64,000 nt of DNA from assembly GCA_947625915.1 (NCBI GenBank), contig CANQPX010000007.1:1-64000 (forward strand). Direction: 5' to 3'. Source of the stretch: an uncultured Clostridia bacterium. GTDB taxonomy: Bacteria > Bacillota > Clostridia > Oscillospirales > Ruminococcaceae. Of the stretch, positions 59,310-61,478 are shown in pieces. The position numbers and the translations under genes are program-made. Position 1 is the first letter of the stretch. Every line of letters begins with the position of its first letter. The notes under the pieces are model-generated. The model did no database searches, had not been told where the DNA came from, and saw only the letters and a program-made list of their open reading frames with translations.

Positions 59310-60791
59310 TTATGATCCCTCCTCTTTAATGCGTTCTTTTTTTAATTTGATTTTCCCGTCATCGTCTTTTTCAAGAGTGTATTTGTAGGAAATTCCGCCT
59401 TCGTAATTTATCTGAACGGTATTATCATCGATCTTTTCCGCAGTTTCAAAAACCTTGTTGCTGACGATAGCCCCGTCATATTCTGTAACGCCGCCAACAT
59501 CAACATTGAAACCGTATTTTTCGGGTTCATCACTTCCCGCAGCCCTTGCGGAAGAAGTGTTTTTGTTGATGAAACGTATACCGTTTTCTTTGCTGATACA
59601 AACATTTCCCGCGGCTTTATCATACTGAACTTTTGTGTCAACTTCCCGCTGCAAATATTCGTCATAATTCCATTCTTCATCGCTTCTCGGATCTGTTCCG
59701 CCGGAAAAATATATTCCCGTATTATCAACGTTTATCACTGCTTTTTTAACGTGCAATTTTTCTTTCTCCCATTCTTCCGTGCCGAATTCGATCTTTGTCA
59801 TGGAATAAATTATTTCATTTATAATTGCTTTTTTGCAGTTCCATGCGGAGTAAACATAATTGCGGATCCTGCTGCAAACGATCCCGTCAAGCGGCGTATC
59901 TGCCACAAGGAACGGCGACTCGGCTTCTATGACCGTACCGGCAGTTATAAAACCGTAATCGGCTTTTTTGTCGGTGTCACTGTTTGTGCATATAAGTCTT
60001 GCAATTTGCTGTCTGCCCTGATGGATCAATTCCGAATATTTTTGACTTGAAATAAAACCATGTAAACTTGTGTCATATTCTTCGCCGAGACATGACAGAA
60101 CGATCTGATCGAAATGGTTTGCCACCCATACTCCGCACATTGCCTCGGAGACCATTTCGAGTATGTCGGCACAAGATTTGTCCTTGACGTGTTCGGGCGC
60201 AAAATTGATATATTCAAAACCGTCACCCGATGATGTTGCACCGCCGCTTATACCGCATTGTGAACAAACTGCGCTTAAAACATTTCCGCATGGTGCTTTT
60301 TCACCGCGGTCAAAAAATAATCCCAGAGACGTACTGTCAAACGCTTTTTCCGTTTGCGAAAGAATATCATATGCCGTAAAACTGCAAACATTATTATTAA
60401 CAAGTCTTTTTGCAATGTAAAAAGTTTTTGACGGATAACATCTTGAATTTTTTTCTCTGAGACGAACGGTATTTTTATTCATGATCGCAGTTCTGTACAG
60501 ACCTGTTGTGTCAAAAATATCAAATTCAAATGAACCGATAGAAAAACCTTTTTCGCCGAAGCTGTTTGTTTGCTGAGTAAATTTTAAATTGCTTATTGGA
60601 TCTGTAACGTCTCTGCCGTCGATCTCGATTATCCATTCATAGCTAAAGCCCGCCTCCGCTGCCGCTGCCGGAATGAAATTCCGACGTAATATCAAGAACG
60701 ATATCCCAACGCAATCCGTCGTCAAGTTCACAAACAACGGTGCCGCCCGTGCTTTCGCTTCGGGTAAAATTATCCGTTGTGCAGCGGTCAT
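59310..60791 (-). CDS. Phage tail protein (large ORF, probably the 3' part of a frameshifted fusion)
   Basis: The open frame is 493 codons, but its first ~50 codons lie inside the preceding gene in another frame and look non-coding. The conserved part begins near SYEWIIEIDGRDVTDPISN (codon after 60644). No ATG or plausible start with ribosome-binding site lies near that point, though TTG near 60700 is possible. At the preceding gene's end the mRNA reads GGAGG-CGGG-CUU-UAG-C, like the RF2 site, so the product may be a 582 aa fusion. The middle resembles tail-tip/baseplate-type beta proteins. Confidence 0.7.
   Translation of the reverse strand: MTAAQRIILPEAKARAAPLFVNLTTDCVGISFLILRRNFIPAAAAEAGFSYEWIIEIDGRDVTDPISNLKFTQQTNSFGEKGFSIGSFEFDIFDTTGLYRTAIMNKNTVRLREKNSRCYPSKTFYIAKRLVNNNVCSFTAYDILSQTEKAFDSTSLGLFFDRGEKAPCGNVLSAVCSQCGISGGATSSGDGFEYINFAPEHVKDKSCADILEMVSEAMCGVWVANHFDQIVLSCLGEEYDTSLHGFISSQKYSELIHQGRQQIARLICTNSDTDKKADYGFITAGTVIEAESPFLVADTPLDGIVCSRIRNYVYSAWNCKKAIINEIIYSMTKIEFGTEEWEKEKLHVKKAVINVDNTGIYFSGGTDPRSDEEWNYDEYLQREVDTKVQYDKAAGNVCISKENGIRFINKNTSSARAAGSDEPEKYGFNVDVGGVTEYDGAIVSNKVFETAEKIDDNTVQINYEGGISYKYTLEKDDDGKIKLKKERIKEEGS
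60642..60657 (-). promoter_or_regulatory. RF2-like +1 frameshift site
   Basis: The mRNA reads GGAGG, four bases, CUU UAG C. In RF2 (prfB) a Shine-Dalgarno-like AGGGGG three bases before CUU UGA C drives +1 slippage. A slip from CUU to UUU here lands exactly in the frame of the downstream tail ORF (UUU then AGC UAU GAA). Confidence 0.5.
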
Positions 60792-61059
60792 CGCTTTGTG
60801 AATGAGGATCGGTGAAAGTCACGGAAAAAGTGTCGTTATCAAGAGCATTTGTCAGCGCGGACATCACATTGTCGGGGATATTTTTTAATTCCGCACGGAT
60901 CTTGTAATTCCAGCCGTTTCGCATGATGATATCCTGCCCGTCATAACCTTTGAAAGAGTCGGCAATATTCCAAATTTTATTTACGCTGAAATTTTCACGT
61001 TCCGCAAGATCGCTTACATCAACGCCGCCGACAATAAGTTTTAAATTACTGTTTTTCAT
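60643..61059 (-). CDS. Phage tail-associated protein (138 aa, Gly/Ser-rich end)
   Basis: A 138 aa protein (LKLIVGGVDVSDLAERENFSV) ending in HSGSGSGGGL before UAG. A glycine-serine end looks like a linker rather than a normal terminus, supporting a +1 frameshift into the next ORF. Confidence 0.72.
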   Translation of the reverse strand: MKNSNLKLIVGGVDVSDLAERENFSVNKIWNIADSFKGYDGQDIIMRNGWNYKIRAELKNIPDNVMSALTNALDNDTFSVTFTDPHSQSDDRCTTDNFTRSESTGGTVVCELDDGLRWDIVLDITSEFHSGSGSGGGL

Positions 61060-61074
61060 AAATTCACAGCCTTT

Positions 61075-61455
61075 CTAAGTCCTTGTAGTGCGCTTGTATT
61101 GGTTGTTAAAATTCATCATAGCCGTTCCGAGAACGTCCTTATCGAGAACGATCTGTATAGGCTTGTTTAATTCTTCGATCAAGCGGTTTATTTCGCTGCC
61201 GGAATAAGAGGGGATATCCTGCCGATCGTATGACGGAGAAACGGTTACAGGCTGTGCATAAACAGCAGGCGGAGAAGTATATGCTTCGGAATTTACTGCG
61301 GATAAAATTTCAGCAGTTATGTTTTCGTTTTTTACAAGTTCTGATATCAATGGATAATTTTCGTTTATTTCGGAAATTATTCCGGATAATTCATTTGCGT
61401 TATGATCGCTTTCTACAGCTTTCATAATTGCTTTTCTGATATTATTTTTTATCAT
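61075..61455 (-). CDS. Uncharacterised phage protein (tape-measure position)
   Basis: A ~126 aa protein. The C-terminal PIQIVLDKDVLGTAMMNFNNQYKR resembles the short end motif of tape-measure proteins, but the long coiled body is absent. It lies exactly where a tape-measure gene is expected, after the Gp15-type chaperone. Start at 61455 fits GAAAGGA better than 61464. Confidence 0.6.
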   Translation of the reverse strand: MIKNNIRKAIMKAVESDHNANELSGIISEINENYPLISELVKNENITAEILSAVNSEAYTSPPAVYAQPVTVSPSYDRQDIPSYSGSEINRLIEELNKPIQIVLDKDVLGTAMMNFNNQYKRTTRT

Positions 61456-61478
61456 CACTTTCATTCCTTTCGTAAAAT

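Follow-up and report, generated by a model that had tools for sequence, protein, structure and literature searches.

We examined two adjacent tail-tip-type open reading frames (ORFs), ORF1 and ORF2, on the minus strand of a 64,000-nucleotide stretch of DNA from an uncultured Clostridia bacterium (contig CANQPX010000007.1, positions 1 to 64,000, hereafter the window), and conclude that the stop codon of ORF1 is very probably a programmed +1 frameshift site, through which a single mRNA would yield both a free ring subunit and a ring-hub fusion. The support comes from comparison: the site is conserved, ORF2 starts are lacking, in-frame fused relatives keep a separate ORF1, and the two proteins are predicted to fall into fitting fold classes.

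A sequence-only reading of the window had described a 138-aa ORF1 with a Gly/Ser-linker end and the junction GGAGG-CGGG-CTT-TAG-C, which is accurate, and had predicted that a +1 slip on CTT enters the ORF2 frame to give a 582-aa product, which the reading frames of the window confirm. Its likening of the site to that of prfB held for the CUU, the stop, and the following C, but not for the 3-nt spacing of the Shine-Dalgarno (SD)-like element, which is 4 nt in the window. The features at the site are as follows.

61059 to 60643, minus strand: ORF1, 138 aa, C-terminal GSGSGGGL (Gly/Ser linker) and stop
60653 to 60657, minus strand: SD-like GGAGG, 4 nt (CGGG) 5' of CTT, a possible stimulator
60642 to 60648, minus strand: shift site CTT TAG C, with P-site CUU at 60648-60646, stop TAG at 60645-60643, and C at 60642
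59310 to 60644, minus strand: ORF2 as read after the slip from AGC, 444 aa plus stop
59310 to 61059, minus strand: predicted +1 fusion of ORF1 and ORF2, 582 aa, with base 60645 skipped

ORF2 lies in the +1 frame relative to ORF1 and overlaps its end. Stop readthrough was rejected as the way of joining them, since a second stop in frame 0 follows within two codons.

Conservation of the ORF1 stop

Homologs were gathered without use of the motif, mostly from prophage regions of one family of gut bacteria together with a few viral contigs, and the loci are for the most part metagenome assemblies. Scans of genome and viral contigs with single proteins returned no homologs; alignment queries and a genome search did find them. 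The genome search gave ORF2 relatives in 17 of 100 relatives and in 34 of 398 genomes of the bacterial family, across 12 genera, and beyond the family but within the order they were few and weak or distant. The named carriers are uncultured Clostridia and Oscillospiraceae metagenome-assembled genomes (from rabbit, water deer, and other samples), and further independent cases came from IMG/VR contigs and the human-faecal phage scaffold MT837472.1.

The conservation counts cover 53 distinct junctions, from which two loci found through the motif (L113 and L114) were excluded. At every one of them the end of ORF1 lies one base behind the ORF2 frame (0 to +1). CTT stands immediately 5' of the ORF1 stop in 51 of the 53, and the base after the stop is C at all but one CTT junction (51/53 over all junctions). 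The stops at the 51 CTT junctions are TAG (43), TGA (6), and TAA (2), the six CTT-TGA-C junctions being the prfB heptamer itself; the three stops interchange at the junction while CTT does not. The remaining two junctions, in the diverged relatives L079 and L085, read GGG-TAG in place of CTT-TAG.

ORF1 is highly diverse (mean column identity ~30%), and of all its residues the last Leu is the best conserved. The possibility that the ORF1s are unrelated families was rejected, the alignment showing a single, highly varied family in which the last Leu never changes. As a control, other columns with conserved Leu use CTT in 43 to 52% of sequences, a comparison that took only CTT loci (hence its 52/52) and is to be read alongside the full set, where no junction among the 53 ends in a Leu codon other than CTT. 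With Leu encoded by CTT at 44% in these genes, finding CTT in 50/50 has a naive p of ~1e-18, ignoring shared ancestry. Compared with ORF2's own stops, both a following C (Fisher p ~5e-16) and TAG (~1e-13) are enriched at the junction; these codon and stop statistics ignore relatedness, though the tree has many long branches. Judged by these comparisons, the shift site is conserved across diverged homologs beyond what the protein would need, and its pattern is one neither of chance nor of sequencing error, the latter, which the sequence-only reading had allowed for, being ruled out by the same arrangement in independent assemblies. The short motif GGNGGTGGTCTTTAGC alone is not diagnostic, because none of the 53 loci that it gave when scanned over viral contigs had a homolog at the site.

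Initiation of ORF2

The sequence-only reading had seen no obvious start for ORF2 near its conserved part, and this stands. All upstream start candidates in the ORF2 frame of the window lie within ORF1 (the first is a TTG at -48 nt), their SD energies are weak with none <= -6, and the next downstream start, ATG 60482, is deep within the conserved part. We surveyed starts in 53 CTT loci, this time including the motif-found L113 and L114. In 21 of these 53 (19/51 without the motif-found two), the stretch from the last in-frame stop to the site contains no ATG, GTG, or TTG, which argues strongly against separate initiation of ORF2, and in several loci the ORF2 frame upstream of the site is open for just 4 to 6 codons. 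Among the other 32 loci, only 4 have any start candidate at an SD energy <= -6, and one of those 4 is L003, whose long frame is due to an indel in ORF1. On this survey of start codons and SD energies, internal initiation of ORF2 was rejected.

Gene architectures and tree

As the sequence-only reading had proposed, we looked among the homologs for single-ORF forms. Two genomes of the same genus (L016 and L024) carry a tape measure gene, a stand-alone copy of ORF1, and ORF1-ORF2 as a single in-frame gene. To judge from this gene order, the fusion is a natural protein, and the duplicated ORF1 that accompanies it suggests that free ORF1 is also needed, so that both products would be required.

Separately encoded homologs with good starts, which the sequence-only reading had held would count against a frameshift, do exist: L070 and L090 have a tape measure gene, an ORF1-like gene, and an ORF2-like gene with its own start. 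They belong to a distant group, however, and do not explain the 53 start-poor CTT loci. The tree groups the shift loci together (2 label changes; none of 500 shuffles gave so few) and sets the separate-gene loci apart as a group of their own; the in-frame pair sits near the base of the CTT loci, in a quick tree whose deep placement is unsure. Branches among site carriers approach or exceed one change per column.

Predicted proteins

Sequence searches against Pfam, PHROGs, and the PDB gave no match to ORF1 or ORF2 of the window. The AlphaFold2 model of ORF1 has a predicted local distance difference test score (pLDDT) of 91, and at borderline E values (best 1.1e-3) Foldseek matched it to tail-tube, Dit, and neck ring proteins, SPP1 Dit (2x8k) among them at 6e-3; uncharacterised siphovirus proteins matched it better than the tube and Dit entries. 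ORF1 homologs have weak DUF6711 and phrog_1194 matches, and ORF1 occupies the Dit position, between tape measure and hub. ORF1 models as a putative small tail-tube/Dit-type ring protein, which would also form the N-terminal domain of the fusion. For ORF2 (pLDDT 85), Foldseek returned many hub entries, among them Mu gp44 (1wru), MuSo2 (3cdd), Listeria gp18 (3gs9), and the 80alpha hub at E values of 1e-8 to 1e-12, and its homologs match phrog_6616, 'tail protein'. ORF2 models as a gp27/gp44-type central hub (Tal-like), the hub fold being recovered in the predicted structure.

Proposed mechanism

We propose that the ribosome pauses with peptidyl-tRNA-Leu on CUU while the A site holds UAG-C, at which termination is poor (in some relatives it is UGA-C or UAA). 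A fraction of the ribosomes would then shift their pairing forward by one base, to UUU, and resume translation at AGC in the frame of ORF2, with slow termination at a C-followed stop helping to move them there. Bacterial prfB genes favour CUU_U for the +1 shift, and in a test of 32 variants with UAG next it was by far the most efficient +1 site (PMC5009743). Each mRNA would then give free ORF1, a putative Dit/tail-tube-type ring protein, and a fusion carrying the gp27/gp44-type hub at its C terminus. That slippage occurs at the CTT-stop site, and at what rate, we infer from sequence; the product ratio would suit a ring of six ORF1 domains on a trimeric hub, as with three free and three fused copies at ~50% shifting. 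Were both the fusion and free ORF1 made, six ring domains could sit on three hubs; in SPP1, a Dit hexamer sits on a Tal trimer (PMC6316719).

A broader proposal, which we put forward only tentatively and hold to be rather doubtful as a whole, is that a family-wide release factor 2 (RF2)-type CUU-stop shift sets a 1:1 ratio of free ring to fusion, and so builds a C6-to-C3 adaptor (three free plus three fused) at the tail tip from one gene, with the site also serving as a shared joint for exchange of ring and hub modules.

Alternative explanations

Several observations weigh against a programmed frameshift at the ORF1 stop. Most loci lack the SD-like stimulator known from prfB: GGAGG or GGGGG lies within 14 nt of CTT in 14 of 50 loci, and a family-wide SD stimulator, tested on these 50, was unsupported, so that the SD-like element noted by the sequence-only reading is present in the window without being constant across homologous sites. 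Anti-SD energy is enriched just 5' of CTT on average, and many other loci share GAC-NGT-CTT instead of the SD-like element. The RNA downstream showed no clear structure (mean minimum free energy z -0.39), the fold matches of ORF1 are modest (template modeling scores of ~0.35-0.57), and L079 and L085, with possible upstream starts, may work otherwise, their GGG-TAG possibly marking another +1 shift codon or separate starts. Were ORF1 and ORF2 instead two separate genes, ORF2 starting within ORF1 or by reinitiation after its stop, CTTTAGC would be a coincidental overlap. The distant relatives L070, L071, L089, and L090, whose ORF2-like genes have their own ATG, and those loci that have an ATG upstream, or a GTG two codons ahead of the site, would fit such an arrangement, but it fails to account for the 21 start-less loci, for CTT and the following C being kept where no initiation signal needs them, or for the existence of in-frame fusions, and we regard it as very improbable.

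An interrupted gene or an assembly error in the window, where one fused gene originally stood, would agree with the single-ORF relatives L016 and L024, with the indel inside ORF1 of L003, and with the very short tape measure of the window prophage. Over 50 distinct sequences, drawn from independent assemblies and separated by long branches, nevertheless show the same phase and heptamer, and ORF1 retains its own start, ribosome-binding site, and stop in nearly all homologs; conservation refutes decay or error as a general explanation, and the chance that it applies is negligible. A different possibility accepts the frameshift and assigns it another role, that of limiting the hub dose or sensing host release-factor 1 or 2 levels rather than setting a ring:hub ratio. 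Shifting at CUU-stop sites varies with termination speed, the stop here is mostly TAG, and the site resembles that of the autoregulatory prfB; yet some sites have TGA or TAA, which would leave no single factor to be sensed, and L016 and L024 exchange the shift for duplication plus fusion, by which both products are kept and sensing is lost. We consider this role unlikely, though worth keeping in mind. Taken together, the comparison strongly supports the view that two tail-tip proteins are linked through an RF2-like +1 frameshift, as the sequence-only reading had predicted.

Neighbouring genes and module exchange

The gene in the tape measure position of the window is short.

61075 to 61464, minus strand: upstream ORF, 129 aa, with a tape-measure-type C terminus and unusually short

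The corresponding genes are only 109-129 aa in the window and in L029, L031, L032, L037, and L041, consisting of just the tape-measure-type C terminus, and 940-1500 aa in the relatives L028, L034, L036, L038, and L042. L029 retains terminase-, portal-, and capsid-type genes, judged by position. The loci with a short tape measure possibly make very short tails.

In L013, L026, and L027 (all from genome G018) and in L004, the first ~176 nt of ORF2 are 86-93% identical while the ORF1s come from different subfamilies, and most upstream blocks are ~65-75% identical, except L004/L026. These identities mark an exchange of modules whose boundary falls at the frameshift site; this suggests that the signal works as an interchangeable joint. 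At the other end of ORF2, the pairs L005/L021, L003/L022, and L002/L018 are different ORF2 paralogs within one genome whose 3'-end DNA is 96-98.5% identical over 89-135 nt, and several contigs break at the shared ORF2 3' end; either recent exchange or assembly breaks at repeats would produce this. L003, with its indel inside ORF1, and L060, with an interrupted ORF1, both keep CTT-stop-C, and L019/L033 (the same locus) carry a deletion join of ORF1 and ORF2.

Comparison with known systems

Our search of open-access text found no description of a Dit-hub frameshift, and the PRFect authors state that all CUU-stop +1 sites in the RECODE collection are from prfB (PMC10885494). The sequence-only reading had called such a site unusual for a tail gene; this appears right for the CUU-stop site, which seems new outside prfB, and for the gene pair, but +1 shifting as such is already known in phage tail genes (SPP1, PSA). 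The family would be a second, phage-borne use of the CUU-stop site, kept in many genera within a single bacterial family. With it, programmed frameshifting would gain a structural tail-tip gene pair, and a genetic way to solve the ring/hub symmetry problem would suggest itself; in practice, gene callers will split these tail-tip proteins in two.

The site resembles that of prfB in its CUU shift codon, in-frame stop, following C, and +1 direction, and in the SD-like element near some loci. It differs in lying in tail genes rather than in the gene for RF2, in a stop that is usually UAG and not UGA, and in the SD-like element, which most loci lack and which stands 1 nt further off in the window. 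Most bacteria have a prfB with a frameshift, unlike this bacterial family: in 19 of 19 genomes (L091-L109) the prfB of the host itself is one ORF and lacks the CTTTGA shift site.

Among phages, SPP1 gp17.1/gp17.1* and Listeria PSA share a +1 shift beside the stop of a tail gene that yields short and long forms; theirs takes place in the major tail tube gene, on a codon for proline (CCC in SPP1), whereas here it is on CTT in the gene after the tape measure, and the SPP1 extension is a non-essential FN3-like domain, not a hub (PMC6316719, PMC5009743). Lambda G/GT is likewise part of a phage tail module with a defined ratio of short to fused product, but its shift is -1 in the chaperone gene before the tape measure, not +1 after it, and its products are absent from the mature virion (PMC5009743). 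The siphophage Dit and Tal/gp27 hub match our loci in the order tape measure, ORF1, ORF2 and in fold classes, the likeness of fold being modest for ORF1; in SPP1 they are encoded by separate genes, while here they are predicted to be joined by frameshifting.
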